This document shows positions 1-37,362 of a stretch of 64,000 nucleotides of DNA, piece after piece; the stretch's first letter is position 1, and each line of letters starts with the position of its first letter. The notes under the pieces are model-generated. The model was not told where the DNA came from. It saw nothing but the letters and a program-made list of their open reading frames with translations, and did not search any database. The translations under genes and the position numbers were made by a program. The DNA is taken from positions 2,790,001-2,854,000 of the forward strand of contig NZ_CP033896.1 in assembly GCF_003813965.1 (NCBI RefSeq). Reading direction: 5' to 3'. Origin of the DNA: Corynebacterium choanae (GTDB lineage Bacteria > Actinomycetota > Actinomycetes > Mycobacteriales > Mycobacteriaceae).

Positions 1-3000
1 ATCCTCATCGGTCACGGTTCCACCAGGGGTGATCGGGGTACCGGTTTCCGAATCGATAAGGTTGCTGCGATCAGCTGGAGTAACACCGACAACCTTGGCC
101 GTGTTCAGCAGCACACCGTTATCGGCGTCTGCTTCTTCCACACTGACCACATGCACCGGGGAGGTACAGGTGGTGGTAGCACCAGGTTCCAGTTTCGTGG
201 CAGCACAGGTCATCGTCACCCCGGCGAACATCGGGTCGGTGACTGCAATATCGCTCAAGGTCACCAGACCAGTGTTGACCACGGTGAAGGTGTAGCGCAC
301 CTCGTCGCCTGCCACGTAGAGATCCTTCTTGGTCTCTGGGGTGACATCCTTGGTCAGGGTGATCCCCGCCTTGGTTGCGGTTGGCACCGTGGCGGTTGCC
401 GCTGGCGTGGTGTCACGCAGTGGCGTGCCATTGTCGTCACCACTATTCGGGATGGTCCGCGACGCGGTGGCGGTGTTGATCTTCTCATCGCCGCCGTCCA
501 CCTCGTCTTGGGTGATCGTGGTCTGCGCGAAACAGGTCACGGATTCACCGGCTGCAATGCTGCCGATCGCATCCGGGGCAACCCCGTCTGCGGCCGGACG
601 GATACCTGCCTCGATATCGGCTGCAGACACATTCGGATAGCAGGCAACATCGCTCGCACCAGCGAACTGCTCGTCGGTGACAACCACATCAGTTGCCGGG
701 GCGTTACCACCATTAATGACTGTGACAGCCCATTCCACAACGGAACCAGCATTTACTTCACCATTGTCGGTCCCGCCGGAAACAATCCGCGATGCCTTCG
801 TGGTGGCCAACTCGGCAGAGCCGGCCACAAAGCTGGCCTTCGCCGGATCAGAGGTGATCTTCTCCCCGCGGGGGTTCTCACCGCTGACCGTCGCCACGTT
901 TTCAATCGTGTTGACAGCCTCGCCTGCAGTAGCATCCGTCTCGGTGACGGTGTAGGTCGCAGTACAGGTACCCGACTCGCCGGCGGCAAGACCCGGGCTG
1001 GTGAGTTTGTCTTCACAAACAATCACACCACCAGCAGCAGGAGCAGCAGCATTTGCATCCTCATCGGCCGTGCCGTCACCGGTTGTCTCGCCCGCATTCG
1101 TGGCGGCCGCAGCTTGCAGCATCGGATCGTCGACGACAATACCTGCCAGCGTCCGCTGACCTGTGTTCGTCACCGTAAACCGGTAGGTGACCTTGTCCCC
1201 TGCCAGATACAGTGCCTGCTGGTCAACGATTTCTTTCACCAGGGTGATGGCATCATCCTGGTTCAACCGTGCCGACTGCTTCGCAGTTGCTGAAACCGGC
1301 GGGGCGTTGCGGGTAGCACCGCTGACGGTTGCAGTGTTGTCAATGCTGTTGCCAGCATCAACATCAGCCTGAGTGACCACAATCGAAGCCACACAGGTGA
1401 CCTTGTCACCAGGTTCTAAACTGCCACCAGCAGCAGATACCAGCTCCGGCTTGTCGGCACAGGTGACCGCGGAGACTTCCGAATCCGCGTCACCGGCAGC
1501 AGCAGCCACCCGATCAGCCACAAGCTGATCGACGAGCTTCACACCATCCAGCTTCGTCTTACCGCTGTTGGTGACCACAAACTCATAGTCGATACGGTCA
1601 CCGACCCGGAAGACCCGGTCAGCTTCCACATTGATGAGCTTCTTTTCCAATTCGATGGCAGGTTGTGCCGTCGGATCGGTCACCTCATTGGAGTCGCCCT
1701 TCGGCGGGGTGATCGTAAACTCGCTGCTCGGCAGCACCGAGGTGTAGCTGGCGACGTTCACCAGATTGCCAGCGGCAATATCCTCAGCGGTTACCGTGTA
1801 CGGATCTGAGGTGCAGGTGTATTCCGCACCTGGTGCAAGCTCGGTAGGCACACAGTTGATCGCCACACCCTTTTCGGCCAAGGCCGGATCGGTGATGGTG
1901 ACATCCTTCAGCGTCGTCTTGCCGGTATTGCGGATGGTGAAGGAGTAGCTCACCTGGTCACCCTCCACGAGGAGTTCGGTCGCAGACGAGGTCTTCGCCA
2001 GCTCCAGCGATGCATCCTCGATGGTGTCAACCGTGGCGGTCGCTTCAGCCGGATCGGCGACGTTGCGGTTCGCATCGGTGCCGGTTGCCACAGCAGTGTT
2101 GCTGATGGTGACTGACTGATCGACGTCATCTTGGGTGATCTCGACGGTGGCGATACAGGTCGCGACCTCACCAGGTGCGAGGATCCCGAGTTCTGTAAAG
2201 CCGTTGGTGGCCTCGCGGCCGGCAACGGTACAGGTCAACTCGGTTACCCCACGGTCGCTGAGCATCTGGTCAGTGACCTTGCCATCCACCAGGGCTGCGG
2301 TACCGTTGTTGCGCACCGTGATCTGGTATTTCACCAGGTCACCAGCCACCAGGTTCTGCAGGTCCACACCTTCCTTGCCTGGCAGGGCAAGCTTTTCCAC
2401 CACAATGCGTGGTGCACCAGTGTTCACCGTCACCGAAGATTCATTCGAGGTCACCGAGCTACCCTGCGGTGACGTACCACCGGCAGTTGCCGTGTTCGTC
2501 AGCGTCGACGGTTTTTCATTGTCGTTGCTGACATCAGCGGCCTGCACCTTGTAGGTGCCAACCAGTTCGACCGTCTCGCCAACCGGCAACACCTTCACCA
2601 GCTCGAGGCAGGCGGCATTGTCATCAGCACAGTGCACATCGCTAATCCGCGGATCGGTGATGGTCACATCCTTGATCGTGACATTGCCGTTGTTAGTCAC
2701 TGTGAAGGTGTACGGCACTTCAGAACCAACGAGCAGGGTTTCATCAGCCTTTACCGTGGTGCTCTTCAGCAGGGTGAGCTGCGGTTTCGCTGCCGGCGGC
2801 GTCACCGTTGCGGTGTTATCGCTGTCGTCAGTATCAGACACTGTCTGCGCGGCAGGATTGCCATCCGTGCCGATGACCTTGGCGTTACCCGCGACGTCAA
2901 TCGTGTTGGAGAGGTCTTTCGCGGCGTCAATATCGTCTTGCGTGTAGGTGACGGTAACACTACACACCGCGGTCTGACCAGCAGCAAGGTTCAGCGAACC

Positions 3001-6000
3001 GGAACCGCCCAGCACCGTGGTGTTGTCGCTTGCGTCAACACAGCTCTCGACCGCCAAGGTTTCTTTCTCAGCACGTCCGCTTAGCGTGTCAGCAATGGTG
3101 ATACCGGTTACGGCCACATTGCCAGTATTGGCAACGGTGATCTTGAACTCGGTAGCACCACTATTTGCGAGCGAACCCTCGGTAGTGGTACCCCACTGCC
3201 CTTCACCGGTTGCCACTTCTTTCTTGGCTGTAATGCTCGGCGCAGCTGCTACTGGATCAACGGAAGCGGTATCAGTCTTCGGATCTAATTGCGTCAACGT
3301 GACAGAACCATCTTCGCCCGGCTTGTCGTAGCTAGGAACCGCGGCAGCAGTATTGACTTCCCGCTGCTGCGCATCAACGAATGCCTGGTCAGCGACATAT
3401 TCGCCAACACAGAAGCGAGAAGCCTGCGGCGGAATCGCGGCAATGACGACAGTATCCTGCGCCCCAGCAGAGGGGTCAAGGTTTGCAGCATCTTCGCCAC
3501 ACACCAGAGCCACAGTGTTATCGGCAGAAGTAAATGTGTCATTGATCGCCACATTCTTCAGCGTCACATTGCCGGTGTTGGTCACCTTGATGACAAAGCG
3601 CGCTTTCTCCCCGAGCGTTAACGTTGCGTTCTCTGCACCATTGACCGTTTTTTCAATGGTGAAATCAGGTGCAGCATCAACAATCTGGTGATCTGCCGAT
3701 CCGGTTGCGGTCACAGGTTCACCGTTATAGCTGCCGGTGATTGAAGCCTCGTTGTGCAGCGCCTGCTGACCGTCCACATCATCCTGGGTAACCGTGTAGG
3801 CAACCTTACAGGTGTAGGTGTCACCAACCGCCAAGGTGCCGCCCGGCGCCTGGGAAATATCGCCACGCGCAGTGGTCACATCTTGCACTGCTGCATCGAC
3901 GATCGTGCAGGTGACCGTCGCACTATGCGCGGTCGCCCACGCATCGGTGACGACGACGTCCGCCAGCGGCACATTGCCGTTATTCGAGCCGGTGATCGTG
4001 AAGTTAGCCTCTTCACCGACGGTCCGCGCCGACGTAGGCTCATCAGCCGATTTCGTCAGCGTGACAGAACGCTTAACGGCACGTACAGCGAAGTCAACCG
4101 TCGGCACACTCGCCACCGTCGTCCCGTCAATGGTCCCGTCTTCCCGCAGGCCAGGAACCGTAAACGTTGGAGTAATCGCCGCAAACGGGTTATTCGCTTC
4201 CACCCCACCGTCGATCTGGCTGGCAGCGCTGATCGGTTCACCCGACTCAGCATCAGCGAAGAAGAAGCTCCGCTTAAAGCGCTTGCGTGCCGCATCATTA
4301 TCGGCAACCTCAAACTTCACCTGATACTCGCCCGGCTTCACCTTCGGGAAGATATAGGTACCATCGGCCTTCAACACCGTCGTGACAGGCTGACCACCCT
4401 GCAGCACAGGGTTTCCTTGCGCATCCAGCAGGTGAACAATGATGTCACCGTCCTGCAGTTCGGTCACCTTCGGGGTATCAGTACCGATACCACCGGTGGT
4501 GGTTTCGCCTAGGTTAAACAGCGACCCGGAGATGCTTGGCGCAATAGTGATCGCCTGCGAATCGCAGCCATAGGAACCGGCACGGGTCGGCACACTATCG
4601 TTGGATTCAATGGTCTCCTCTGAGGAAGCTTCACAGCCAACTTGGCCGATGACCGTATTTGAGCCACCAGACACATGGTTGGTTACGGTACCGACTGCAT
4701 CGCCAGTGACCTGAAGCTTCAGGGTAACAACAGCCTTTTTCTGCTTGCCGTTTTCCTCAACACCTGTCTTGGTCAGTTTGCCCGGAATCCACACAATGTG
4801 ATCACCGTCGACGATTGGCGATTCACCAATCGCAGAAATCTCGGAAGCATTGTCATGGTTGTAGTCCTCATAGATCGTACCCACGGTTGGTTGTTCCGTG
4901 CCGACATATTTCAGACCAGCTGGAATAAAGTCACGGATCACCGGGGAGGCCAACACAGCGTCATTCTTCGTCGACACCGAGATCTGGAAGTAAACGAAAT
5001 CACCTGCACCGATGAGATAGTCGGCTGGATCCTGACCGTCAACCTTCTTCTTTGCATCAGCAAAAGATTCACCGTCGGCAGGAATAATCACCGACTTGTT
5101 CACCTTGATCTCTGGGACATAGCTCACCCGTGCGACGGATGGCTTGATGGTGCCCAGATCCTGATCATTCATCGACTTCGAGCGGTTAGCCACCCGGTTG
5201 ATTGCGATATCCTGATCGTCAATGCCGTCGCCGGATACATCGTTATTCGGCATGTTCATCGTGAACGGCAGATCAAATTGCCCGATCAGCGGCTTGTCAA
5301 AAGCAACGCGGAAGTAACGCACCTGTGACCAGTCAATGTTGTCCGGCTTGGTCTCAGCGGTAAACCACTGATTCTTGGCATTAAATGTGCTACAGTCGCT
5401 ACCTTCTGGCCAAACGCTCTGCCCAACTGGAGCCATTTCTGGACGACACGGATCAATCTCGGTGGTGTACCAGACGGTTGCCGGCGCAGGACCGGTTTCC
5501 ACGGCTTTCTGATCATTCAGATAGTTCACTTCAGGCAATGCAATGGGACCCGTTAACGTCGGGATGAGCGTTGACGAGTTAACAGCGGACTCATTAGTAA
5601 TGTTGCCCTTGTCATCAAATTCAAGATGGGTTCCCGCCATTTCCTCCTGCGAGCCGCTGAAGGTATTCATTGGAACCCAGCGTTCAGCAGGAAGCGCATC
5701 GTAGAGTACGAAATCCTTAATCGGATTCGAGCCACCGGCTCCACCACGAATTGTCCACTCAACCTGCTTGGTTGCATAGGAAGTGAGTTCGCTGGAGTCT
5801 TTACCCGGCAAAAACTGCGTTGGGTTTTGATCGGTCTCGTCCTTATCGCCCTTGGCGTACTTGGAGATCGTGGACGCACCGAAAGCAAGTACCGTGAGCG
5901 TAGCCCTCTGTGGATGCCAACGTACTCGCTCATTACCGGGTGCAGTGCAGAGGTTGCCCTCAGGGCCTTCACAACCGACATTTTCAGTGTTATTGATATT

Positions 6001-8235
6001 GTCGGTGTTTGCAGCTATCGGCTGTTTTGGATCGGCCGTAGTGATCATCGAAAGTACCCGGCTGAACTTGTTGGTCAGCGATTCCTGATTATAATTTCCG
6101 GCTACTGCACCATCGTAATTAATCCAGATGCTAAACCCGCAATTACCATCATTTTGGCCAGCCGGCAGCTCCATACCTTCAGGAACCGTCCAAGTCCAGA
6201 CTTCACCGCCGGAAGGTGAGACTTCAAACTCACCATCACTCGTCTTCGCCCGCGACCAAGTGACCTGACGTGGATCAAACGGTTTCAGCTCCGAACCAGC
6301 TGGGAATTTACCGTCTTGTGCAGCAACACAAGCGTTCGCGCTGCTGTCATTGGGCGAGTGAGGACCGCCGAAGGTGAAACCCTTTGGAAAAGCGACGACA
6401 CCATACGGCCGATATGAATCTGGTGCACTTTTTGCCAAGTTCTGCGGCCGAATCGTAAGGGAAGCACGGCCACCCACATCACCGAAAGTGGTTGCACCAA
6501 CGTAGATATTATGACGTGGCTGCGAAAACGATTCACGCACCCGCAACCTGGCAGTGCTATTAACCGAGTTCTGTCCATTTCCAGATTCGGTGGCTTCGCT
6601 TTGTTGATAGGTGATCGTCGCATCATTTGCGATTTCAACAATGTACCGCCGATCCAGCTCTTTGCCGTCAATAGCGTAGATATCTTCAGGCACATCAACA
6701 TTTCCATACACCCGGAACGTCTGACGAGCAGAACCAAGCAGATTTTCAACATCCATCGTGAACCCAGTCGCCACAAAATCAGCTGGAAGTTCGATGGGGT
6801 AGCTCACAGAACTTGAGCTTTCTTGCTGCTCACCTTTGACGACAAATTCTTTGCCACCTTCACCTTTTACAGTAAGGGTGAACGCGGGAACACCCTGGTA
6901 GAGCTCCACTTGCCCGTCTGCGCCCTCAACCTTCTGCAAGGACAGGTCCATGACAAGCTTGTTGGGTTGGAAGTAGTAACCACCATTTGCCTGGTCATCG
7001 GCTTCTTTACAAGCACTGGACTTGTATTCTGCGTCTGCCCAGGTAGCACAAGTTTGCGACCGGAATTCGTCAACAATATTCAGCGGACCGTCCGCGCCGT
7101 TTACGGCAGAGAAACTGAAGTAAGGATTCGTCGTATGGTTGAACTCTGATTTCTGTTGCGTGACGGGATCCAACGCGCCACCAGAAGCACCTTTTCCGGC
7201 GCTACCATCGACTTCTCCCTCCTGCACCGAGGCAGAGGCATCAGAAGACACACCCTTCGAATTTTTCGTCAGCGGTTCCCCACCAATAGTTTTCAAACCG
7301 TCAGGGGCCCATCCCCAGGTGTTATCCCAGGTGTTAGTTTCATTCGTTGGCTTCTGCGTCGTACGAACGACATATTTAATTCGGAAACGGGCCAGCCCAG
7401 GGGTATTCACCGCATTATCAAGTTCTTTCGTCACATTGACGCGAATCTGCCGGGTGCCAGGATCGTAGGTAAAGTTTTCCTGGCTCAACATGTACGAGTT
7501 ATCTTTCACGATAACTTGCCCCACATTCGATACATCGCCCGTAGCTGGGTTAATCTCCGGCTTCGCACCATGTGGATTAAGGAACCTTACCAGCTCGACA
7601 CCCTCTGGCAGCGTGTCAACCAGCACACCGGTTACACCTGTAGTTCCCTTACGGATGTACTGCAGCTCGTAGGTGACATACGCACCCACTGGAGCCTTGC
7701 GCATATCTGCGCTTTTTGTCACCAAATTTTCAATAGTGCCGGTCAGCTCCATTTTCGCCGAACCGGTTTCTTGTTTCCCGTTGTAGGAATAGGTGTAGTT
7801 ATACTGCTCCGAACCTGTAACTGTCGGGTTATCGTCCGACTTCCACACAACGGTAAAGGAGTTCTGACCGGCGGAAAGGCCCGTAAACGTCAAGGTCGGA
7901 GTAGACGAATAGGAATCTGCAACCTTGATCTGCCTATTCGCCGCAATGAGTCGAGCATCCGGCGCCAAAAGCGACGGCCGGTTCAGCTGCACGGTCACCT
8001 CCCCAGGGCAACCATTGCCACAGTTAATACTGATGGGAATCTGTATGTCTTCATTCCGACCAGTCTTACCCGATGTATCCCCTACCGATACCGTGACGCC
8101 ATCGATAGCGGCATGCGCACTGGGGGCGGCAACGACTTGTCCAGTGAGGATGAGAATAAAGCTAAACAAGATCGCCGCGACCGTGCGGCTCAAGGCCTTG
8201 AGGTCGATCGACCCAGCAGATCCCTGTGGAGACAT
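1..8235 (-). CDS. Giant repeat surface protein A (C-terminus beyond window)
   Basis: Minus-strand reading frame open from an ATG at 8235 to the window edge, at least 2745 aa; it is incomplete, so its sorting signal is not visible. The start is preceded by GAAAGGA about 5 bases upstream. Residues 1-43 form a signal peptide (basic start, hydrophobic core, cleavage likely after APSAHAA). Residues up to about 1380 form a region shared with the two downstream paralogues, including the motif LPEGVELVRF and a prealbumin/SdrD-B-like domain near 1230-1340. From about 1384 on, at least ten DUF11/DUF7507-like repeats of about 110-140 aa are seen, each with the pattern NTGNVTL..V.ITD, a Cys, LxPGxxxxC, and NTAT.xG. 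A secreted, wall-linked adhesin or stalk is inferred from the family and from the LAXTG anchors of its two paralogues. The ligand is unknown. Confidence 0.85.
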   Translation of the reverse strand, partial: MSPQGSAGSIDLKALSRTVAAILFSFILILTGQVVAAPSAHAAIDGVTVSVGDTSGKTGRNEDIQIPISINCGNGCPGEVTVQLNRPSLLAPDARLIAANRQIKVADSYSSTPTLTFTGLSAGQNSFTVVWKSDDNPTVTGSEQYNYTYSYNGKQETGSAKMELTGTIENLVTKSADMRKAPVGAYVTYELQYIRKGTTGVTGVLVDTLPEGVELVRFLNPHGAKPEINPATGDVSNVGQVIVKDNSYMLSQENFTYDPGTRQIRVNVTKELDNAVNTPGLARFRIKYVVRTTQKPTNETNTWDNTWGWAPDGLKTIGGEPLTKNSKGVSSDASASVQEGEVDGSAGKGASGGALDPVTQQKSEFNHTTNPYFSFSAVNGADGPLNIVDEFRSQTCATWADAEYKSSACKEADDQANGGYYFQPNKLVMDLSLQKVEGADGQVELYQGVPAFTLTVKGEGGKEFVVKGEQQESSSSVSYPIELPADFVATGFTMDVENLLGSARQTFRVYGNVDVPEDIYAIDGKELDRRYIVEIANDATITYQQSEATESGNGQNSVNSTARLRVRESFSQPRHNIYVGATTFGDVGGRASLTIRPQNLAKSAPDSYRPYGVVAFPKGFTFGGPHSPNDSSANACVAAQDGKFPAGSELKPFDPRQVTWSRAKTSDGEFEVSPSGGEVWTWTVPEGMELPAGQNDGNCGFSIWINYDGAVAGNYNQESLTNKFSRVLSMITTADPKQPIAANTDNINNTENVGCEGPEGNLCTAPGNERVRWHPQRATLTVLAFGASTISKYAKGDKDETDQNPTQFLPGKDSSELTSYATKQVEWTIRGGAGGSNPIKDFVLYDALPAERWVPMNTFSGSQEEMAGTHLEFDDKGNITNESAVNSSTLIPTLTGPIALPEVNYLNDQKAVETGPAPATVWYTTEIDPCRPEMAPVGQSVWPEGSDCSTFNAKNQWFTAETKPDNIDWSQVRYFRVAFDKPLIGQFDLPFTMNMPNNDVSGDGIDDQDIAINRVANRSKSMNDQDLGTIKPSVARVSYVPEIKVNKSVIIPADGESFADAKKKVDGQDPADYLIGAGDFVYFQISVSTKNDAVLASPVIRDFIPAGLKYVGTEQPTVGTIYEDYNHDNASEISAIGESPIVDGDHIVWIPGKLTKTGVEENGKQKKAVVTLKLQVTGDAVGTVTNHVSGGSNTVIGQVGCEASSEETIESNDSVPTRAGSYGCDSQAITIAPSISGSLFNLGETTTGGIGTDTPKVTELQDGDIIVHLLDAQGNPVLQGGQPVTTVLKADGTYIFPKVKPGEYQVKFEVADNDAARKRFKRSFFFADAESGEPISAASQIDGGVEANNPFAAITPTFTVPGLREDGTIDGTTVASVPTVDFAVRAVKRSVTLTKSADEPTSARTVGEEANFTITGSNNGNVPLADVVVTDAWATAHSATVTCTIVDAAVQDVTTARGDISQAPGGTLAVGDTYTCKVAYTVTQDDVDGQQALHNEASITGSYNGEPVTATGSADHQIVDAAPDFTIEKTVNGAENATLTLGEKARFVIKVTNTGNVTLKNVAINDTFTSADNTVALVCGEDAANLDPSAGAQDTVVIAAIPPQASRFCVGEYVADQAFVDAQQREVNTAAAVPSYDKPGEDGSVTLTQLDPKTDTASVDPVAAAPSITAKKEVATGEGQWGTTTEGSLANSGATEFKITVANTGNVAVTGITIADTLSGRAEKETLAVESCVDASDNTTVLGGSGSLNLAAGQTAVCSVTVTYTQDDIDAAKDLSNTIDVAGNAKVIGTDGNPAAQTVSDTDDSDNTATVTPPAAKPQLTLLKSTTVKADETLLVGSEVPYTFTVTNNGNVTIKDVTITDPRISDVHCADDNAACLELVKVLPVGETVELVGTYKVQAADVSNDNEKPSTLTNTATAGGTSPQGSSVTSNESSVTVNTGAPRIVVEKLALPGKEGVDLQNLVAGDLVKYQITVRNNGTAALVDGKVTDQMLSDRGVTELTCTVAGREATNGFTELGILAPGEVATCIATVEITQDDVDQSVTISNTAVATGTDANRNVADPAEATATVDTIEDASLELAKTSSATELLVEGDQVSYSFTIRNTGKTTLKDVTITDPALAEKGVAINCVPTELAPGAEYTCTSDPYTVTAEDIAAGNLVNVASYTSVLPSSEFTITPPKGDSNEVTDPTAQPAIELEKKLINVEADRVFRVGDRIDYEFVVTNSGKTKLDGVKLVDQLVADRVAAAAGDADSEVSAVTCADKPELVSAAGGSLEPGDKVTCVASIVVTQADVDAGNSIDNTATVSGATRNAPPVSATAKQSARLNQDDAITLVKEIVDQQALYLAGDKVTYRFTVTNTGQRTLAGIVVDDPMLQAAAATNAGETTGDGTADEDANAAAPAAGGVIVCEDKLTSPGLAAGESGTCTATYTVTETDATAGEAVNTIENVATVSGENPRGEKITSDPAKASFVAGSAELATTKASRIVSGGTDNGEVNAGSVVEWAVTVINGGNAPATDVVVTDEQFAGASDVACYPNVSAADIEAGIRPAADGVAPDAIGSIAAGESVTCFAQTTITQDEVDGGDEKINTATASRTIPNSGDDNGTPLRDTTPAATATVPTATKAGITLTKDVTPETKKDLYVAGDEVRYTFTVVNTGLVTLSDIAVTDPMFAGVTMTCAATKLEPGATTTCTSPVHVVSVEEADADNGVLLNTAKVVGVTPADRSNLIDSETGTPITPGGTVTDED

Positions 8236-8297
8236 AGTGTCCTTTCGGTGGCACCAGGTGGTGCACAGGCAAGACGAACATTCGACTGAGCAAACTG

Positions 8298-8332
8298 ATA
8301 AGTAGCTTCAATAGATTTATGACCTACTTATA
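8298..8332 (-). promoter_or_regulatory. Candidate promoter/operator of giant gene A
   Basis: An inverted repeat ATAAGTAG (8298-8305) and CTACTTAT (8324-8331) lies 63-97 bases upstream of the ATG at 8235. On the minus strand it overlaps TATAAG (8327-8332), which could serve as a -10 box. No convincing -35 is visible. An operator overlapping the promoter is an inference. Confidence 0.35.
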
Positions 8333-9708: not shown

Positions 9709-9741
9709 CACGCGGGGACGAGATGATCTCATCCCCGCGTG
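9709..9741 (-). terminator. Rho-independent terminator of giant gene B
   Basis: The arms CACGCGGGGA (9709-9718) and TCCCCGCGTG (9732-9741) pair perfectly, and the interior GAGAT/ATCTC extends the stem. It starts 20 bases past the stop codon at 9761-9763. On the minus strand the hairpin is followed by TTGTTGTTCTGTT. Confidence 0.85.
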
Positions 9742-9760
9742 ATGTTCGCGAATAGTGGTG

Positions 9761-20227: not shown

Positions 20228-20262
20228 AACCCCGGATGGTGTGGGATACACCATCCGGGGTT
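20228..20262 (-). terminator. Terminator of giant gene C
   Basis: A perfect 14-bp stem (20228-20241 with 20249-20262, arms AACCCCGGATGGTG and its complement) with a 7-base loop lies 67 bases after the stop codon of gene C. The downstream minus-strand sequence is only weakly T-rich. Confidence 0.75.
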
Positions 20263-20328
20263 ATTAGCTGGAATCAACCAGCTCTTCGCACCATGCACTG
20301 CTCGTAACGGCGGTGCTTTGTGATGCTG

Positions 20329-23300: not shown

Positions 23301-26300
23301 CACTGCCGTTCGCTGCATCAGTGGAGGTGATCACATAGGGTGCAGCAGCGGCACAAGGAGTTGACTCACCTGGGGCAAGCACATCCTTCTCACAGGTGAT
23401 AGCAATACCATCCAACTGTTGGTCAACAATCGCCACATCATGAACCGTCACCGAGCCGGTGTTGCGCACCGTGAAGGTGTACATCACCTGGTCACCGGTG
23501 GTAAGAATACCCTCCGGCGCAGCCTGCTTTTCCAGCGTCAACGCTGCCGCCGTAGTGGGCGACACGGTTACTTGCGCAGTATCGGTGACCTGCACGCGAT
23601 CGTTTGCATCATCCGGATCAGTGGTGCTGGTTGGCACCCCATTGGAGTAGCCGGTTGCTGTGGCCGTGTTGGTCAGCGGCAGTCCAGCATCGACTTCCTT
23701 CTGGCTGATGGTTTTTGTTGCGTAACAGGTGATGCTGTCACCAGGTTGTGGCAGCTGCACACCCGCAGCAATATCACTGATGGGCTCACCACTTGGACCA
23801 GTACAGGACAGCTGATCCGCCGCAAACCACGGATCGGTGATGGTGACCTCCTCTAAGGGAGTATTGCCAGCATTCGTTGCCGTCAAGGTGTAGGTGACCT
23901 CAGCGTCGGCGGCAAGCTGAGTAGTCGGTTGTGCCAATTTCTTCAGCACAAGCTTCGGCGCACCAACAGTCACCGTCACCTCATCATTGGCAGTCACGGT
24001 GTTGTTGTCATCAACCCCGCTGAGATTATCCCGCCCAGCCGGTGCCACACCAGTAACACTTGCCTCGTTGAGCAGCTGTCCTGCATCCCGCGTCGCATCA
24101 CTGTCGGTGACAATGTACGGCTCAGCAAGACAGGTGGTCGACGCATCCGGGGCAAGGGTGGTCACCGGGCAGGTGATCTGCAACCCGGCAAGCAGCGGAT
24201 CAGTAATGCTGATATCGGACAGGGTGACCTGCCCAGTGTTGGTGACGGTGAAGCTATACACAATGCGGTCACCGGCCACATACTGTTCCTTCTTCGTCGC
24301 CGCCGTGACTTCCTTGGTCAGCGAAATACCCGCCGCAAGCGCATTTGGCACCTTCGCGGTCACTTCCCCGGTGGTCACCGTCGGCGCATCATCGGCACCC
24401 GGATTAGCGACACTGCGCGACGCCGTCGCAGTGTTGACCGTGGTATTGGCAGCATCAACATCATCCTGAGTGATGGTGGTAGTCACCACACACTGCACCG
24501 CAGAACCGGCGGGCATGGACCCGAGCGCGTCAGGTGCCAGCGTTGCCGGTTCACCAGGAGGCGTCTGCACAGTTGTATCCGCATTACCTGGTGCACCAGT
24601 GGCGGTGACCGGTGTGCACACCACCGTGTTCGGGGCGGCAAACATCGCATCGTTGAGCGTGACATTGTCTGCTGGCGCATTACCAGTGTTCGTCACGGTT
24701 ACTGTCCACTCCACTGTGGAACCGGCAACCACCCGGGTTTGCTCGTCGTCCCCGGTCACGCCGCCGCTGACAATCTTGGCAGTTTTCGCCACCACAAGAT
24801 TCGGGGTGCCGCTGACAAAATCGGCAGCGACCTGTGGCGCCGATACTGGCAAACCATCGGCGGCAACACCATCAGCACTGGCAATATTGCGGATCGTATT
24901 GGGTGTGCTAGCAGTAGCAGCATCCTTTGCAGTCACCGTATAGGTGGCGCTACATTCAGCATGCTCACCTGCCCCCAACCCCGGTTTGGTCACCTGCTGC
25001 GGGCACACAATATCCACGCCCGCATCGGCAAGCATGTCGTCACTGATCGTAATGTCATGCACCGTCAACTGGCCCGTATTGGTCAACACGAACCGGTAGT
25101 TCACCGTATCGCCAGCCTGGTAGATCGGCTGCTCATTGTCGATCGACTTCTCCAACAGCAGCGACGTTTCACGTTTCAGCGGTGCCGTCACTTCCGCCGC
25201 CGCCCGCGCACTAGCCTGACGGGTATCACCGGTGGCATACGCGTTATTCAACAGTCCGTTGCCGTCATCCACATCAGCCTGGGTGACCTGCATGGTGACC
25301 GTACAGCGCACCGACTCGTCAACCGCTAACGTGCCGCCGTCGACACCAACGAACTCTGGCCGATCACCACAGTCAATCGCGCTCGCCGACGGCGTTTCGG
25401 CGGCGCTGCGCTGGGCAGCTACCGGATCCCGCAGCTTCACCCCAGTCAATGGGGTAAGGCCGGCGTTGGTTGCCACAATGGCGAACGTCACCGTATCCCC
25501 TACCCCGTAGCCGTCGGCAGGTTCATCCACAATGCTTTTCACCAACTCGATACGGGGCACAACAAGCTTGTCGGCGACAATATTGGACTCGCCGGTAACC
25601 GGGTCAGTGTTGGTGAAGTTTCCACTCGGCTTCAACGAGGTAAACGCGGCCTGGTTGAGCAGCTCACGGCCAGCAATATCGCGCGCGTCAATAGTCACCG
25701 GCGGGCTATAGCAGGTGTGTGTCTGCCCCGGTGGCAGATCGAATGGGGCACAGAAACCGGTTGCCGATGCAACATCGATACCACGCTGGGCGAGCATGTC
25801 ATCGTGCAACGTCACCTGTTTTAAGGTGACATCCCCGGTGTTTGTGAACACAAAGGTGTAGACGACCGTGTCCCCTTGAACCATATATTCCGGCGCATCA
25901 GAGGTTTTCTGCAGCGTCATGCTGGCCGCCTCAGAGGTTTCCACAGTCGCGGAGAAACTCGGCACATTAGAACGGTTACCGCGCGCATCTTCCCCTTCGG
26001 CGCTGGCGGTATTCACAATCGGCAACGACTCGTCGATATCTTCCTGCGGAATTTGGACGAGCGCCACACAGCGGGCATATTCCCCAACTCCGAGGGCAGG
26101 GATCCCTTCTGGAGAGAAGCCGTCGAATTGATCCTCTAAATTGTCGCCCACATAGCAGGGCAGATTCTTCGCCCCCCACAGGCGCAGGGTGTCATCATTG
26201 ACGTGCACATGAAACAGTGGTGCGGTGCCGTTGTTCGTCACCGTAATCTGATACACCACCGCGTCCCCGGCTTGCAGATTGTCAATATCGGCACCGTCAT

Positions 26301-29300
26301 AGCCGCGGGCTTCTTTCACAATTGCCAACCGTGGCGCACCAGTTTCAATACTCGTCGAGCTGTCATTGGACACCACCGGCTGGTGTTGCGGATCGTGACC
26401 GTGCACGCGGGCAGTATTGCTTAATGGTTTCGCGGACTGATCGTCGCGGGCAACATCGTCGGCGGTGACCGTATAGGTTCCGCTGCAGGTGGCTACCGCA
26501 CCAGGACTGAGTGTTTTCACATCATCCGGGCAGGTCAGCTTCACACCCGCGAGATCTTCTTCCAAACGAACATCGTTAATGGTGACATTTCCGGTGTTTT
26601 CAATCCGGAATGTGTAGGTGACCTCATCGCCGGCAAGCAGCAGTGTGTCAGCTGGCTTGTCGCTGGTTTTATCCAGCTGCAGGGCAGGGCTTGCCGCCGG
26701 TGGGGTGATGGTGACCGTGTTGTCGGCCAGCTGGTCGTCGCTTTCAGTTACCTCAACTTGCACCGGCTTACCGTTGTCGTCGATAGATTTCGCAACACCA
26801 GTGACCGTCACCTGGTTGGTTAAGGTTTGTTGCTGATCAACATCCTGCTGGGTGTAGTGCATGGTGACTTCACAGGTCACCGCCTGCCCGGCGCGCAACG
26901 CAATCGATCCGTTACCGGCAACAACCTGATTGTTTTCATCGGTACAGATTCCTACTTCGAGGTTTTCGCTGTGTGCTCGGCCAGTTAACGTGTCGGTGAG
27001 GGTAATCCGTTGGACTTGCACATCACCGGTGTTGCGGACAGTCAACCGGAAGGTGAGCTGACCGCCGTTGTCGAGGGTTCCTTGCCGGGTGTTGGCATAG
27101 CTGCCATCATCGGTGCGGACTTCCTTGGTGACTTGCAGCTGAGGATTCGCGGCGACTGGCTGCAGGCGCACTTCGTCTGACTTGGGTGCCATCGGCACTT
27201 CCACCAGCTCATTGTCCTCGTTGCGGGTGGAATAGTTCGGGATGACTGTAGCGACGTTCACTTCCTGGGATTGGTTTTCCAGGAACTCCTGGTCAGCGAC
27301 GAATTTCCCTAAACAGGTGTAGGTTACCTGCGGCGGAATTGCCGGAATGACAATAGCTTGTTTCGTTGCATCGTCAACGGTGAGCTTGCTGCGATCAAGA
27401 CCGCAGACAAGATTGGTTGGCTGTGACTCGTAGGAGAACTGGTCGGCGACCGCAACATTAGTCAATGTCACATTGCCGGTGTTTGCTACTTCGATCACGA
27501 ACAACACTTCGTCGCCAACGTGAAGTTGGGCGCTTTTCTCGACGGGAAGTTCGACGGTTTTCGTCACGGTAAACGCCGGTGCGGCAGTATGCACATCAAT
27601 ACTCGCGGAGTCGGTTTTCTCCACGGTTTTCCCGGCATATTCGCCGGTGATTTTTGCTTCGTTGCGCAGCGGGAGCTGCTGATCTAGGTCGGCTTGGGTG
27701 ACCTGGTATCGAACTTCACACGCGTAGTTGTCACCCGGCTGCAGAATGGCACCCGGGTCGCTGAGCAGATCACCACGCTGGTCGGTAACTGTCTGCCCAG
27801 CCTGATTAGTGATGGTGCACAGTGGGGTGACCTGGTGGCTGGTTGCCCACTCATCGGTCAGGTGGACGTTGCTCAGTGGCACATTGCCAGTGTTGGCACC
27901 GCTGATCGTAAACGATGCCGTATCGCCAACATTGCGGGGTTCGGTTTCATTCGCCGATTTCACCAGTGTCAGGTCAACAATGTTGGCTTTGACCGCAAAG
28001 TCAACATTGACCACATTGGCGCTGCCGACACCTGCCGTACCGGGCACGGTAAAGACACCGGTGACTGCCCGCGGTGTGCTGCTTGTCGTATCGATACCGC
28101 CATCGATATGGTGCGGTTCGCTGATGTCGCTATCATCGCTGCTGCTCTCGGCAGGCATGAATTGGAAACGCTGCGCAAAGGTTTCCTGATATGTGTCACT
28201 GACAGTGAGCGCAACCTGATATTCGCGGCCGGGATACACCTTGGGGAAGACATAGTTGCCTTCCTCGTCAACATCAACAGTCACCGGTTTACCGTCGATG
28301 AGTACCGGTTGCCCGGTTTCGTCGAGGAGCTGGGCGACGACTGCCCCAGCGGGCAGCTTGGTGACTCGGGGGGTGGTTTCGGTGAGTCCATCGCCTGGCG
28401 TCGTACCAAGATCAAACAGTGATCCGCGAATCGACGGGGCGATGGTGATGGTCTGCGAATCGCAGTTGTTTTGGGTGGCGCCGTCGGCGATCGCTTGAGC
28501 ATTTTGCTGGTTACAGCTGTCTTGCGTGGGAATATTGACCTGTTCCCGGGTGGTGCCGAAGGCAAAGTTTTGGATCACCCCAATGTTGTCACCGGTGACT
28601 TGCAGCCGCATGGTGACTTTCGCAGGTTTATGGGGTGCGTTTGGATTATTCGGGTCGATCACCCCGTCGTCGGTGAGCAGACCAGGAAACCACACCACTT
28701 TACTGGTGGGGTTGGTTGGCAGCACCGGGTTTTCGACGGCTGCAGCCGCCTCGTCGGCAACCGGGTCAGCATAGCTGGTGTAGACGTGGCCGGTGGTTTC
28801 ATTCTCCAGGACGTCGACAAATTTCAAACCGGCGGGGATAAAGTCGCGAATCATCGGTGATTCCAACACCACCCCGTCATTTTTGCCGGTGACGCTGATT
28901 TGGAAGAGCACATAATCGCCCACCCCAATGAGATAGTCACCAGGGTCGGTGCCGTCGAGTTCGCGGCGCGCATCGCCGAAGCTGCCGCCGGTGTCGGGCA
29001 GGATGAGGGACTTGTTCACTTCTAATTCGGGTACATATTTCACCCGTGCCACAGCCGGGGGCAGTGTGCCAAGGTCGACGTCGCCATTCGGGTTGGCGGC
29101 ACGGAACGCCACCCGGTTGATAGCAATATCGCTGTCGCCGATACCAGTGCCGGTGGTGTCATTTTCGGGCATTTTCATCGGCACAGGAATGTCGAATTGG
29201 CCGGTGAGCTGGGTTAAGAATTCGATCCGCAGATAGCGGATGCTTGCCCAGTCACTCACCTGGTCGGCGGTTTTCCATTCGTTTTCCCCGTTGAAGGTGG

Positions 29301-32094
29301 CACAGGCTGGCCGGTCGGTGGGATATGCCCCGGCGCGGGTCGCACCCATTTCGGGGCGGCAGGGGTCGGTTGCCGCCGAATAGTAGATTTTTGCCGGGAC
29401 TGGACCGATTTTCCACCGGCGGAGGGTTTTGTCGTAGTAGGAGACGTCGGGCAGCACGATCGGTCCGGTGAGGGTAGGCACGAGCGTGTTGTTGTTCACT
29501 TCACTGCCGGTGACTTCCCCAGTGGCTGGATCATAGGTGGTGTGGGTGCCAGCAGTGGTTTCTTGGGACAGTTGCAGCGAGTTCATTGCTGTCCACGGCC
29601 CTGCCGCCGGCAGCGCGTCGTAGAGCACATAGTCTTTCAGCGGCACCGACCCGGAGGTACCTACCCGCAGGAAGAAGGTGACGTCTTTCGTCGCCCACGA
29701 GGTGGTGGCCAACTGGTCATCGGCTGGCAAGGCGGTGGTGCGGGTGTCCAGGCTGGGATCCTTGTCACCCCAGGCATATTTGTTGATTTCTGCGGCCACA
29801 AAAGGATCCACACTGACCGTGGCGGTGGAGGTTCGCCACCGTTTCATATCCCGGCAGCTTTGCTCGTCGGGGCGGCAACCAATGCCGTAAGGGTTGGTGG
29901 CAAATGCCGGTGTGGCGGCAAGTGGCTGCTCCGGGTCGGCGGCAGTCACCATTGCTTCTATGGCAGGAAATTCGTTGTCCAACACCGGATCGGTGTATTT
30001 CCCGGCCGGGGCACCCGCAGCGAACACATCAAGATCGACTTGGCAGCCGTTGACGGATGCTTTCCCTGGCACAACCACCCCTTCGGGGGCGCTATATTTC
30101 CAGATTTCACCACCGGACGGGGAACGCTGCGCAAGCCGCTCCCAGCGGAGCATATTTGGCTGGTAGACGGTTTGTCCTTCGCCAACGGTCACCCCCCGGT
30201 TACACACCGGATTGTTGTAGGCGGCAAACACTTTGTCAGGATGGATCTCCCAGCCGTTGGGCATGACAATATAGCCGGTGGGCTGATACGGCTCATCCGA
30301 ATCGTTTTTGAGGGTAAACCGCACCTTGGCAGGTTGCTCATCGGAAATGTATTTCTCCACCTTAGTTTCCAAGGTGATGCCCGGATTGGCGAAGTTTTCA
30401 TAAACCGTCATGCGTGCCGCGGCGGTGCGCACAATCGGTTTGTTTCCAAGGTCTGCATAGTCAAAACGAATATCGTTGATGAGATTGATATTCTCCAGGC
30501 GGCTGCCATCTGGTTTTTCGAAGAGCCGGTCGGGAATATCGATCCGGCCGGTGATATACCCTACTTGCCGCTCCCCGGAAGGCACCCCGGTGAGCACCGC
30601 GGTAAACCCAACAGGGATAAACCCGGCTGGGGCAGTAAGCGCGATGCGTTTGCGGTCCGTGTCGGTGTCTGCCGGCACTTCGGGCAGTTCATGTGTTTGC
30701 CCAGCGGCGTTGACGAGGGTGATTTTTGCGGCCGGGTGGCCTTGCACAACTTGGAAATCGTCGCCGCTGCCTTGATAGATCGTCACCGGCTCAAGAAGGA
30801 ACTCTTGCGGCACATAGTGCACCTTCCCATCGCCGCCGGCCACGCTACAGGGTTGTTCCTTGCCTGGCTCTTGATAGACAGCGTTGGGATACTGCAAACA
30901 TCCTTGTGGCCGCAGCCGGTCGCTGATCGTGATCGGCCCGTTGCCGTAGCGCAGCACGGAAAAGTTGAAGGTTTGTTTATCGCGATGATTGAGCTGGGTG
31001 CCCACCGGGCTTTTCCCAACCGAACCGGCACCAGCTTCAATAACGCGAATAGATTTCACCGCATCTTTGACAGTGTTGGTAACCGGGTTGCCGCCCAGAT
31101 CGGTGAGGCCTTCGTTTCGCCAACCGAAACTGTTGTCCAAGTTTTGGTTTACTACCGCTTCTTCGGTGACTCGGGCGACATATTTTATGCGCAGCACCTG
31201 CACACGTTGCGCGGCCGCATCCACGGTTTTATCCACGGTGAGCTGGATTGTTCGTGTTTCCGCGTCGTAGCGCAGATAGTCGCGGCTGATCAGCCGTTCG
31301 TCACGGTTGTTCACTGCTTTTAAAAACCCGTTGGCATAGTCGTCGACAATGTCGTTGAACGTTGCCTGCCCACCTGGGGTGGGGTCGGTGTTTAAAAATT
31401 TCACAAATTCCAGACCCGCCGGCAGCTGGTCTTTGATCACCCCAAGACTGCCGGTCACCCCTTCGCCGCTGTAGCGGAAATACTCGGCGACATAGGTGAT
31501 GTATTGGCCGTGTACTGCCTGGTTGACGGATGCAGATTTTCTGAAGGTGTAGCTCGGGCTACCGGTGATCGTGGTCGGCACAGTACCTGTGGCAGTCTGC
31601 CCGTTGAGCGCAACGGTAAATGGCACGTCTTGTTTGCTGGGATAGCTAAAGGGGTCTTTCGTCGGCCAGGAAACGGTGACACTGTACACACCGTTGCCGG
31701 TCTCCCCGAGCTTCGGGAAGGTGATCGTCGACTGCTCCCCGGTGGGGGTGGTGATGGACGCCCCGGGCGGGGCGGCGGTCACTGCGCCTTTCGGCCAGGC
31801 CGCCGCCGGGCGGGGCATGGTAATGCTGATCCCGTTACAGCTTTGCTGACAGTTCAGATTGAACGTGTAGCTGATACTCGTGCCGACTGCGGCAGTGGTT
31901 TCCACCGGCGGGGTGACCGTCACCCCACTAATCGTCCCAATAGGGGTCGCGGCAGGCTCCGCGGCCCGGGCTGGGGCAACAGTAACCTGTAATCCAACGG
32001 TAACCAGCATGATGGCGCAAAGCTGTGCCAACAACACAGCCACAGCGTGTGATCCTAGCCAGTGCCGATCAGACGATCCTTTAAGGTGCCGCAT
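20329..32094 (-). CDS. Giant repeat surface protein C with LARTG sorting signal
   Basis: A 3921-aa protein, the longest of the three. The ATG at 32094 is preferred over 32163 because AAAAGG lies about 9 bases before it and the signal peptide (about 1-47, ending PARAA) begins there. The shared N-terminal region runs to about 1370. Thirteen DUF7507-like two-Cys repeats span about 1370-3085. Four second-type repeats (KIFID, KIFGD, KIFVD, KLYVG followed by GDGQ-like and VTNTG motifs) span about 3085-3740. Next comes a Pro-Val-Asp-Thr segment built on PPVDPTD (about 3748-3807), then LARTG at 3889-3893, a Leu-rich membrane helix and LRRRSA at the end. It has two more repeats of the first type and two more of the second than protein B. 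A wall-linked surface stalk is inferred; no enzyme motif was seen. Confidence 0.92.
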   Translation of the reverse strand: MRHLKGSSDRHWLGSHAVAVLLAQLCAIMLVTVGLQVTVAPARAAEPAATPIGTISGVTVTPPVETTAAVGTSISYTFNLNCQQSCNGISITMPRPAAAWPKGAVTAAPPGASITTPTGEQSTITFPKLGETGNGVYSVTVSWPTKDPFSYPSKQDVPFTVALNGQTATGTVPTTITGSPSYTFRKSASVNQAVHGQYITYVAEYFRYSGEGVTGSLGVIKDQLPAGLEFVKFLNTDPTPGGQATFNDIVDDYANGFLKAVNNRDERLISRDYLRYDAETRTIQLTVDKTVDAAAQRVQVLRIKYVARVTEEAVVNQNLDNSFGWRNEGLTDLGGNPVTNTVKDAVKSIRVIEAGAGSVGKSPVGTQLNHRDKQTFNFSVLRYGNGPITISDRLRPQGCLQYPNAVYQEPGKEQPCSVAGGDGKVHYVPQEFLLEPVTIYQGSGDDFQVVQGHPAAKITLVNAAGQTHELPEVPADTDTDRKRIALTAPAGFIPVGFTAVLTGVPSGERQVGYITGRIDIPDRLFEKPDGSRLENINLINDIRFDYADLGNKPIVRTAAARMTVYENFANPGITLETKVEKYISDEQPAKVRFTLKNDSDEPYQPTGYIVMPNGWEIHPDKVFAAYNNPVCNRGVTVGEGQTVYQPNMLRWERLAQRSPSGGEIWKYSAPEGVVVPGKASVNGCQVDLDVFAAGAPAGKYTDPVLDNEFPAIEAMVTAADPEQPLAATPAFATNPYGIGCRPDEQSCRDMKRWRTSTATVSVDPFVAAEINKYAWGDKDPSLDTRTTALPADDQLATTSWATKDVTFFLRVGTSGSVPLKDYVLYDALPAAGPWTAMNSLQLSQETTAGTHTTYDPATGEVTGSEVNNNTLVPTLTGPIVLPDVSYYDKTLRRWKIGPVPAKIYYSAATDPCRPEMGATRAGAYPTDRPACATFNGENEWKTADQVSDWASIRYLRIEFLTQLTGQFDIPVPMKMPENDTTGTGIGDSDIAINRVAFRAANPNGDVDLGTLPPAVARVKYVPELEVNKSLILPDTGGSFGDARRELDGTDPGDYLIGVGDYVLFQISVTGKNDGVVLESPMIRDFIPAGLKFVDVLENETTGHVYTSYADPVADEAAAAVENPVLPTNPTSKVVWFPGLLTDDGVIDPNNPNAPHKPAKVTMRLQVTGDNIGVIQNFAFGTTREQVNIPTQDSCNQQNAQAIADGATQNNCDSQTITIAPSIRGSLFDLGTTPGDGLTETTPRVTKLPAGAVVAQLLDETGQPVLIDGKPVTVDVDEEGNYVFPKVYPGREYQVALTVSDTYQETFAQRFQFMPAESSSDDSDISEPHHIDGGIDTTSSTPRAVTGVFTVPGTAGVGSANVVNVDFAVKANIVDLTLVKSANETEPRNVGDTASFTISGANTGNVPLSNVHLTDEWATSHQVTPLCTITNQAGQTVTDQRGDLLSDPGAILQPGDNYACEVRYQVTQADLDQQLPLRNEAKITGEYAGKTVEKTDSASIDVHTAAPAFTVTKTVELPVEKSAQLHVGDEVLFVIEVANTGNVTLTNVAVADQFSYESQPTNLVCGLDRSKLTVDDATKQAIVIPAIPPQVTYTCLGKFVADQEFLENQSQEVNVATVIPNYSTRNEDNELVEVPMAPKSDEVRLQPVAANPQLQVTKEVRTDDGSYANTRQGTLDNGGQLTFRLTVRNTGDVQVQRITLTDTLTGRAHSENLEVGICTDENNQVVAGNGSIALRAGQAVTCEVTMHYTQQDVDQQQTLTNQVTVTGVAKSIDDNGKPVQVEVTESDDQLADNTVTITPPAASPALQLDKTSDKPADTLLLAGDEVTYTFRIENTGNVTINDVRLEEDLAGVKLTCPDDVKTLSPGAVATCSGTYTVTADDVARDDQSAKPLSNTARVHGHDPQHQPVVSNDSSTSIETGAPRLAIVKEARGYDGADIDNLQAGDAVVYQITVTNNGTAPLFHVHVNDDTLRLWGAKNLPCYVGDNLEDQFDGFSPEGIPALGVGEYARCVALVQIPQEDIDESLPIVNTASAEGEDARGNRSNVPSFSATVETSEAASMTLQKTSDAPEYMVQGDTVVYTFVFTNTGDVTLKQVTLHDDMLAQRGIDVASATGFCAPFDLPPGQTHTCYSPPVTIDARDIAGRELLNQAAFTSLKPSGNFTNTDPVTGESNIVADKLVVPRIELVKSIVDEPADGYGVGDTVTFAIVATNAGLTPLTGVKLRDPVAAQRSAAETPSASAIDCGDRPEFVGVDGGTLAVDESVRCTVTMQVTQADVDDGNGLLNNAYATGDTRQASARAAAEVTAPLKRETSLLLEKSIDNEQPIYQAGDTVNYRFVLTNTGQLTVHDITISDDMLADAGVDIVCPQQVTKPGLGAGEHAECSATYTVTAKDAATASTPNTIRNIASADGVAADGLPVSAPQVAADFVSGTPNLVVAKTAKIVSGGVTGDDEQTRVVAGSTVEWTVTVTNTGNAPADNVTLNDAMFAAPNTVVCTPVTATGAPGNADTTVQTPPGEPATLAPDALGSMPAGSAVQCVVTTTITQDDVDAANTTVNTATASRSVANPGADDAPTVTTGEVTAKVPNALAAGISLTKEVTAATKKEQYVAGDRIVYSFTVTNTGQVTLSDISITDPLLAGLQITCPVTTLAPDASTTCLAEPYIVTDSDATRDAGQLLNEASVTGVAPAGRDNLSGVDDNNTVTANDEVTVTVGAPKLVLKKLAQPTTQLAADAEVTYTLTATNAGNTPLEEVTITDPWFAADQLSCTGPSGEPISDIAAGVQLPQPGDSITCYATKTISQKEVDAGLPLTNTATATGYSNGVPTSTTDPDDANDRVQVTDTAQVTVSPTTAAALTLEKQAAPEGILTTGDQVMYTFTVRNTGSVTVHDVAIVDQQLDGIAITCEKDVLAPGESTPCAAAAPYVITSTDAANGSVENTATVTGLKPDQTADTPLAERPSANASVTVDTGLPRLQVKKTALAESAQVGDSVKFALEVTNIGTTPVEHIGVVDKLAAERGAKVNCDDPAIAAGEKTLAPQAMFQCTVSVEVNTADLAEKELINIAEVTGSYHQQKTPEATSTATVTVQARDAALATKIFIDNTTQGEQSSSGDGQTADTAVTVPYGTQATATVTVTNSGAAPLVGVGITIDGYPAASLTNLPVTITDDAGNTVDNLHPVDGIEGLVIRQAESGYVLSADATLPAVVLPSGATATVEVLLPAQTAKEASYPVDASAINAETNQPVTTAHDPLYTVAATTPQLAGKIFGDSVTTDDGQSPATAVAVPAGKPFPAAITVTNTGTSPLTAITIAVDGALADSLTLTMTDAAGNPLAGKDIPTSAKPVDGVVLRFSNGQLVLSADKSLPAVLLPPGATITGSVTVAASQIGKNTQQTVTAVDAITGTQVQSVDDFYTTAESTPPPATNPALSAKIFVDEPTTATAGRGDGDTVEQAVVVPQQATPTATMIITNTGDEPIGSLALTLPETDTTAPVFTLKIAGGELVSTPTTATGVEGNVLRQQPDGSLILSSDSALPAVVLQPGQELQASIVLPEQAAGVRDYPLAVSGEGTSSATQVTDTDSLYVRGAGDAQLVTKLYVGDTLPGADHNVDPAVDGQTSATAVPVLAGSPVTISAAMTNTASEPLTHLYPSTTGPVTLDDATWQLVDEDGNAVAPDTGEHADGLMLRVTRDGTVVLSDDATLDPVVLQPGQTIVATTTVTITGTESVESMITVTGVTPDGSTPVIASDPLWLVAAEQPVDPTDPPVDPTDPPVDPTDPTDPPVDPTDPPVDPTDPPVDPTDPPVDPTDPPVDPTDPAPEPPQPVAPGSSSSEVPWWIIVVPGVIVTVPILGGLINSGLLPPVTSTPGPVTPPEPPVSEVQTPQQPQPVQPEPPRDGLLARTGADVDQLGLVALLLLLLGGGLLVLRRRSA
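20675..20851 (-). repeat. 21-bp coding repeat, PPVDPTD stalk
   Basis: About eight copies of a 21-bp unit close to GGATCGGTCGGATCAACCGG plus one base, with one copy shortened, encode the PPVDPTD segment of protein C. Neighbouring copies are nearly identical, so recent expansion and length variation between strains are likely. Confidence 0.85.
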
Positions 32095-33935: not shown

Positions 33936-33971
33936 CAGCAACACTGGGACGCTAGCCGCCCGCCGGATCAC

Positions 33972-37243: not shown

Positions 37244-37362
37244 GCGAAGTAGCTTAAAAGAAACCGCCCCAAGTTCCAAATCCTTCCCATGTCCCGGTGA
37301 TGCAACAGTCCACGGGAGTATCACCAGGGGCAGCTACCGGCACTCTGTGCGATGTGCGGCTA

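Follow-up and report, generated by a model that had tools for sequence, protein, structure and literature searches.

A family of seven predicted sortase-anchored surface proteins sharing a multi-domain head in Corynebacterium choanae

What do three giant genes standing one behind the other in a Corynebacterium genome encode, and how did they come to stand together? The question is raised by the window analysed here, a stretch of 64,000 nucleotides covering positions 2,790,001–2,854,000 of the single 2,986,773-base contig of Corynebacterium choanae (NZ_CP033896.1), in which three minus-strand genes, called GA, GB, and GC below, encode giant surface proteins. They belong to a family of seven in this genome. 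Our prediction is that a sortase anchors the seven proteins as fibrillar adhesins, with a conserved head of several domains that is likely kept at a distance from the cell by a long stalk, a reading whose probability we put at roughly 0.7. In window coordinates, the genes, with protein lengths in amino acids (aa), are as follows.

1–8235, minus strand: GA, giant surface protein; the N-terminal 2,745 of 3,914 aa lie inside the window, and the whole gene is at L011:1492–13236
9761–19960, minus strand: GB, giant surface protein, 3,399 aa from a GTG start (3,386 from a later ATG)
20329–32163, minus strand: GC, giant surface protein of 3,944 aa (a later ATG would give 3,921)

Each protein starts with a hydrophobic N-terminus (judged by eye) and a head of about 1,370 aa that precedes the first repeat, followed by repeats with two cysteines, repeats without cysteine, a Pro-rich stretch, and an LAxTGA sorting signal, in this order in all three. 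The parts map as follows.

4114–8106, minus strand: GA head, aa 44–1374 (from the alignment and the first repeat; coordinates by arithmetic)
15857–19783, minus strand: GB head, aa 60–1368 (from the alignment; coordinates by arithmetic)
28024–31956, minus strand: GC head, aa 70–1380 (from the alignment; coordinates by arithmetic)
1–4113, minus strand: GA two-Cys DUF7507 repeats (an array of 13 that continues past the window edge)
11324–15856, minus strand: GB two-Cys DUF7507 repeats, 11 in number
22852–28023, minus strand: GC two-Cys DUF7507 repeats, 13 in number
10190–11305, minus strand: GB Cys-less repeats, two
20785–22830, minus strand: GC Cys-less repeats, four
9764–10189, minus strand: GB Pro-rich stretch, upstream hydrophobic segment, LAQTGA, membrane segment, and Arg tail
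20332–20784, minus strand: GC Pro-rich stretch, upstream hydrophobic segment, LARTGA, membrane segment, and Arg tail

The first-pass annotation of this DNA had described three consecutive giant paralogues, and three minus-strand reading frames sharing one layout from a signal-like N-terminus to a sorting signal bear this out. Of its sizes, 2745 aa holds for the part of GA inside the window, and 3386 and 3921 aa are the lengths of GB and GC from later ATG codons; its design of two-Cys repeats is right, with the count of 10–13 now corrected to 13, 11, and 13 in GA, GB, and GC; and the Pro-rich stalk it named is present, although as a short stretch of 61, 102, and 118 aa, respectively, before the sorting motif.

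A DUF11 search of the whole genome returned six giant frames, the three of the window together with GD (3,862 aa, near 2.64 Mb), GE (3,844 aa, near 2.52 Mb), and GF (3,917 aa, near 2.24 Mb), all on the strand of GA–GC, and a search with the head alignment added a seventh member, GG (1,232 aa, near 533 kb). In GG, the head (residues about 45–1060) is followed by a Glu-Pro-Thr stretch and the same anchor, without DUF7507 repeats, and a Pfam search of this protein gave no family. The six giants span 3,399–3,944 aa and are acidic, with a pI of 4.3–4.5, and the best local alignments of their 15 pairs are 33.7–46.9% identical. A chance origin is excluded because six open frames of this length align at such identities, and an assembly artefact, which the first-pass annotation had considered, is ruled out by the single contig and by six open giant frames that are too diverged for a misjoined repeat. 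The proteins of this family are real, well formed, and of a known kind, namely giant isopeptide-stapled wall-anchored proteins; what is not routine is the unnamed head with a cross-phylum signature, the expansion to seven copies, one of them stalkless, and the preservation of the repeat order during the duplications. Five more large frames of 1,263–2,170 aa with the same type of anchor lie near 0.307, 2.500, 2.602, 2.748, and 2.754 Mb of the same genome.

The stalk repeats, found by searches with a profile built from these proteins, number 98 in the six giants, 82 with exactly two cysteines and 16 with none; GA–GF carry 13, 11, 13, 15, 15, and 15 of the former and 4, 2, 4, 1, 2, and 3 of the latter. 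The two-Cys type corresponds to Pfam DUF7507 (PF24346, CLIPPER_2), which scores 503.1 bits in GB and 612.7 bits in GC (12 and 13 stretches) against a curated cut-off of 27, and DUF11 also lies far above its curated cut-off in both proteins. The triad residues given for DUF7507, renamed CLIPPER_2, in the accessible text of the describing paper are Lys, Asp, and Asn (PMC12617251), and across the 82 aligned two-Cys repeats Lys is found in 80, Asp in 80 (Glu in the other 2), and Asn in all 82. From these residues, each DUF7507 repeat would close a Lys–Asn isopeptide bond and a disulfide, and disulfide formation is plausible because three Thioredoxin_4 (DsbA-like) places are present in the genome. 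The Cys-less type opens with K-[IL]-[FY] and carries G-D-G-[QN], and similar segments are visible in a protein of another Corynebacterium genome (G139). The two cysteines themselves are no novelty but the usual state of DUF7507 in related genera, as 61 of the 68 matched repeats in nine loci outside this genome have exactly two and the remaining seven have three or four. An additional weak match (L048) lacks cysteine, and the same repeat search gave no match in the proteins of L043, L044, L045, and L047.

At the C-terminus, all seven proteins carry LAxTGA, a hydrophobic segment, and an Arg tail, and all seven have a second hydrophobic segment with W and P located 37–45 residues upstream of LAxTGA (for example, within window positions 20332–20676 and 9764–10108), which, as a guess, might sit in the mycolate outer layer. 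Such an anchor is ordinary for the genus, its profile matching 156 of 242 Corynebacterium genomes, with many of the matches listed covering the sorting-signal part only. The genome has two Sortase-domain genes, at C1:2708405 and C1:93987, one of them standing alone (L016:5697–6545) and the other (L015:7636–8712) belonging to the following cluster.

L015:6692–14993, about 2.707–2.715 Mb: pilus-type cluster with a sortase, a 540-aa SpaA-like pilin (LPATGG), a 1,353-aa VWA protein (LPDTGG), and a 307-aa pilin-like protein (ending LARTGANV)

None of the seven genes lies within 55 kb of either the pilus-cluster sortase or the lone one. The sortase acting on LAxTG here is presumably of class E, judging from its context. 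In the accessible parts of the literature, LAXTG is given as the signal recognised by class E sortases (PMC5148588), and the C. diphtheriae housekeeping sortase SrtF is reported to anchor the LANTG protein CmrA2 (PMC12445094). The lone sortase is likelier than that of the pilus cluster to be the anchoring enzyme. The description of the window proteins as giant, adhesin-like repeat surface proteins, made at first sight of the sequence, stands because of the DUF7507 and DUF11 scores, the sorting signal that is invariant in seven proteins, and the two sortase genes.

The head was initially taken for a single domain of about 1,370 aa without an assignable function; its size holds, and fold comparison resolves it into several domains, probably about seven beta-sandwiches. 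Domains 2, 3, and 5 match CLIPPER or pilin folds in this comparison, and domain 2 of GA additionally gives a weak DUF11 match (E 5.8e-4, below the cut-off). The domains and the motif discussed below are located as follows.

31036–31566, minus strand: GC head domain 2, aa 200–376, CLIPPER-like fold
30397–31032, minus strand: GC head domain 3, aa 378–589, pilin-like fold
29029–29802, minus strand: GC head domain 5, aa 788–1045, CnaA-type pilin-like fold with a large insertion bearing the CRPE signature
29350–29361, minus strand: CRPE motif of GC
17180–17191, minus strand: CRPE motif of GB
5437–5448, minus strand: CRPE motif of GA

The top Foldseek matches of the head are integrins and complement, with TM-scores below 0.2, a sign of many beta-sandwiches only, and the fold matches to the MSCRAMM adhesins SdrD, UafA, ClfB, and Cna are weak and unspecific. 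Pfam (searched with GB, GC, and the head-only form GG), NCBIfam (GA and GC), and PHROGs (GC head) contained no named family, enzyme, or adhesion domain above cut-off for the head, and a search of PDB chains with the head profiles A1 and A4 gave no match at E 0.01, the best value being 0.61; the match to a known non-surface enzyme family that the first-pass annotation envisaged as a counter-case was not found in these libraries. A PPO1_DWL match in GB was discarded at E 0.12. A search of PMC by titles and abstract openings, which leaves most subscription journals outside, turned up no account of these proteins or of this head.

The isopeptide-type triads recur in the head, as counted in 13 heads, seven from this genome and six from other Corynebacterium. 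In domain 5, K795, D849, and N1016 are kept in 13 of 13, and in domain 3, D415 and N563 are likewise kept in all and K384 in 12; in domain 6, the triad is kept in the six giants, the other seven rows being partly unaligned or absent there. Of the 13 heads, 11 keep the Lys of domain 2, and 12 each keep its Asp and its Asn; GF is the only own head to have lost all three together, a joint loss that would be expected of a bond-forming set. The insertion of domain 5 carries [ND]PCRP[EN], followed by a Cys and then a Trp, and none of the 13 heads departs from its residues C935, R936, P937, C954, and W963. This conserved NPCRPE...C...W insertion may be the ligand site, for which it is the best candidate.

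The order of the repeats and the tree of the heads bear on how the three genes came to stand together. When two-Cys repeats were compared between paralogues, the best match lay at the same index, counted from either end, in 353 of 410 comparisons (random indices gave 48 on average and 67 at most over 200 trials), and only 2 of the 82 found their best match within their own protein. This positional correspondence shows that the array was in place before the duplications, and its order has been kept since; the differences in repeat number lie towards the C-terminal end of the array. In the head tree, the seven own heads fall on one side of a branch (95/97), within which GG joins GA and GD (99/99) and GF joins GB, GC, and GE (91/89). 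GA thus groups with GG and with GD, about 137 kb distant, and GB and GC group with GE; forcing GA, GB, and GC into a clade costs 127 log-likelihood units (p-AU 6e-5). The three genes are adjacent, as the term tandem array had implied, and a simple local triplication is ruled out, since they form no clade. The placement of GG among the others points to a lost stalk, a reading that depends on the root, and long end branches for H199, H024, and H139 leave the deeper order of the tree unsure.

The first-pass annotation had proposed to look for the same array in other genomes of the genus. Among 242 Corynebacterium genomes, counting the present one, only 6 carry the head, which sits on SdrD-B-like stalks in P0006 and P0007 and on other stalks in G139, G024, and G199; GG of the present genome has it without a stalk. 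A further Corynebacterium genome, G011, encodes a 4,411-aa protein (L078:2765–16000) whose 23 two-Cys DUF7507 repeats follow an N-terminus of another kind. The head is separable from the stalk, because the same head sits on different stalks or none and because similar repeats stand behind another N-terminus in G011. As the genus searches scored two (first search) and at most ten (second search) candidates per genome, copy numbers elsewhere are lower bounds. The first search matched 13 of the 242 genomes, seven of them at E 1.5e-6 or worse, and among these seven only G199 carried the head in the second search; the six other weak matches were dropped for lack of a match there. A short-piece match in G086 likewise had no counterpart in the second search, and G011 was dropped as a head carrier, its match (E 6.5e-5) lying in the repeats of a protein without a CRPE motif whose alignment with the giants begins only at about residue 1,215. 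The head gene of G018 (L046:4598–14289) is split over two consecutive frames of 1,055 and 2,130 aa, by either a broken gene or a sequencing error. A protein-database search with GC residues 780–1210 returned five proteins, all on the contig of this genome, with 1,717 candidates scored and GB not listed, and one with the G043 protein returned two, with 1,670 candidates scored; absence from these searches is weak evidence.

Across 396 genomes of Actinomycetota, five more heads were found in one distant family, together with a weak match in G601. A scan of named genomes with the whole-head alignment had yielded 134 stretches that fit the pattern, none of which was confirmed, and a scan with the alignment of domain 5 confirmed 7 of 48 stretches, in a Propionibacteriaceae metagenome-assembled genome (MAG), Streptomyces sp. 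NRRL B-1347, a gammaproteobacterial MAG, a Saprospiraceae MAG, two Anaerolineae/Anaerolineales MAGs, and one unclassified MAG, six of these seven records being metagenome bins whose taxon labels can be wrong. Eleven distant loci were read, comprising four of the six genomes of the phylum survey (G601 and G867 were left out) and all seven scan loci. A frame with the CRPE motif is present in 10 of the 11 (L080 reads CRSE, and L082 has none), with the motif at residue 792–924 of frames of 1,083–4,272 aa, some of which reach the end of the fetched DNA. L085–L089 have the CRPE head in frames of 1,657–4,272 aa, the labels of these bins being Gammaproteobacteria, Saprospiraceae, "bacterium", Anaerolineae, and Anaerolineales. 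In several phyla, the head stands close to the N-terminus of proteins of a surface type. For the seven scan loci, conservation of CRPE is circular because the scan itself used the CRPE pattern. An alignment of 21 heads, made up of the 13 Corynebacterium heads and the 8 of 11 distant heads matched by the whole-head profile, keeps Lys795 in 20, Asp849 in 21, Asn1016 in 21, Cys954 in 21, and Trp963 in 20, all residues outside the scan pattern. A tentative extension, to which we give somewhat less than even odds, would make the head a portable adhesin tip of a kind not yet described, built as a chain of isopeptide-type beta-sandwiches with the NPCRPE...C...W ligand site in its fifth domain, which would have spread across Actinomycetota, Chloroflexota, Bacteroidota, and Gammaproteobacteria on varied stalks; of the seven tips that this genome would then hold, six would be on long stalks sharing one ancestral plan and the seventh would be a short form.

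The traits of a fibrillar adhesin are present in these proteins, namely a hydrophobic N-terminus (again by eye), a repeat stalk, and a wall anchor, and we infer adhesion as their role. A giant would be exported by Sec, its DUF7507 repeats would form their isopeptide bonds and disulfides, and a sortase, probably the lone one, would cut LAxTG and couple the protein to peptidoglycan; some 20–25 beta-sandwich domains would then make up a stiff rod, with a length of the order of 100 nm for that number of domains, holding the head out past the mycolate outer layer, where it would bind a surface ligand. The 1,232-aa GG would display the same kind of head close to the cell. As the heads have diverged while the stalk plan has been kept, the paralogues may differ in target.

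Several of the same observations would also suit structural coat or aggregation proteins, whose rods would carpet the cell and whose heads would stick to one another or to sister cells without a dedicated foreign ligand: there are seven copies in one genome, the stalk follows one plan with its order kept, the six giants are acidic, and DUF11 proteins stabilising cell aggregates in Methanothermobacter are mentioned in the accessible part of PMC12617251. However, a coat would not call for a head whose signature stays fixed across phyla, nor for a short form that lacks the stalk, and we regard a coat as unlikely, though it is the best surviving of the alternatives to anchored fibrillar adhesins. 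The invariant residues of the CRPE insertion, together with the fact that none of the libraries searched covers it, could instead mark the active site of an enzyme or catalytic trap at the tip of the stalk, but the folds matched are structural beta-sandwiches and the two cysteines most simply form a disulfide, which makes a catalytic head highly improbable. Least probable of all are pilus subunits polymerised by the pilus-cluster sortase or decorating that pilus, since, even though the genome has such a cluster, one small pilin of it shares the LARTGANV ending, and the head domains are similar to those of pilins, all seven genes lie more than 55 kb from the cluster, six of the proteins are already as long as fibres, and LAxTG differs from the LPxTG type of the larger pilins of the cluster.

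Among known systems, the fibrillar adhesins with CLIPPER and CLIPPER_2 (DUF11/DUF7507) domains, as far as the accessible text describes them (PMC12617251), share the tandem DUF7507 and DUF11-type beta-sandwich stalk, the Lys/Asp/Asn triads, and the surface anchoring, whereas the giants described here add the unnamed head of about 1,370 aa, with partly CLIPPER-like domains and the CRPE insertion. Pilins of Gram-positive bacteria such as SpaD and BcpA, corynebacterial ones among them, are similar in that their isopeptide-type domains can be aligned with domains 3 and 5 of the head, but the genes here do not lie beside a pilus sortase, and there is no sequence match to solved chains. The MSCRAMM adhesins also place a multi-domain beta-sandwich N-terminus on a wall-anchored stalk, yet the likeness is confined to weak fold matches, with no sequence relation at E 0.01. 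The "SdrD B-like domain-containing protein" entries of C. epidermidicanis and Corynebacterium sp. LK2510 (P0006, P0007) have the same head, CRPE signature, and LAxTGA anchor and differ by SdrD-B-like repeats in place of two-Cys DUF7507 repeats, with one homologue per species in the search that returned them. The 4,411-aa protein of G011 shares the two-Cys DUF7507 repeats, the upstream hydrophobic segment, and an LAxTG anchor, and differs in its N-terminus and the missing CRPE motif.

The head can now be searched for as a module: it has a signature and approximate domain boundaries, and its natural stalkless form of 1,232 aa is small enough to be expressed and solved in practice. The stalks provide a clear case of a long adhesin repeat array that was laid down once and kept its order through several gene duplications instead of homogenising, which makes selection on stalk reach or order testable.

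A conserved gene lies upstream of the array.

32523–34025, minus strand: tgt (PF01702; synteny)

The array sits between tgt (end at 2,822,523) and a convergent Vut_1 transporter gene (end at 2,785,819), which are 36.7 kb apart. The two are convergent neighbours at a distance of 0.9 kb at most, or overlapping, in five of nine relatives (G012, G025, G139, G011, and G024) and are spaced about 4.8 kb apart in G178; in G050, G043, and G018, the Vut_1 gene was not found in the stretch fetched around tgt. The best match of tgt among the 242 genomes of the genus is only 78% identical. Elsewhere in the genome, GE adjoins a preceding gene that we take to be rpoC, and GF lies between genes that we take to be nrdF and ctaD.

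Each window gene had been credited with its own terminator or leader, and hairpins do follow GB and GC.

9709–9741, minus strand: terminator-like hairpin after GB, with the longest stem of the scan (15 pairs; 7 hairpins in the stretch against a mean of 2.2 in shuffles)
20228–20262, minus strand: hairpin after GC with a weak T tail, read from the sequence and not reported by the hairpin scan

No 8-mer is common to four or more of the six upstream regions of the giants, and the giants are probably transcribed separately, because they share no upstream motif and because of these hairpins. At the gathering threshold, Rfam reported only tRNAs in the window and in L011–L014. The roughly 1.5 kb between the GB hairpin and GA (window positions 8236–9708) is without a convincing gene or Rfam match. 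Five tRNA genes (Ser, Arg, Arg, Ser, and Ser) lie within 7 kb at window positions 37153–43953, both Arg tRNAs having the anticodon ACG.
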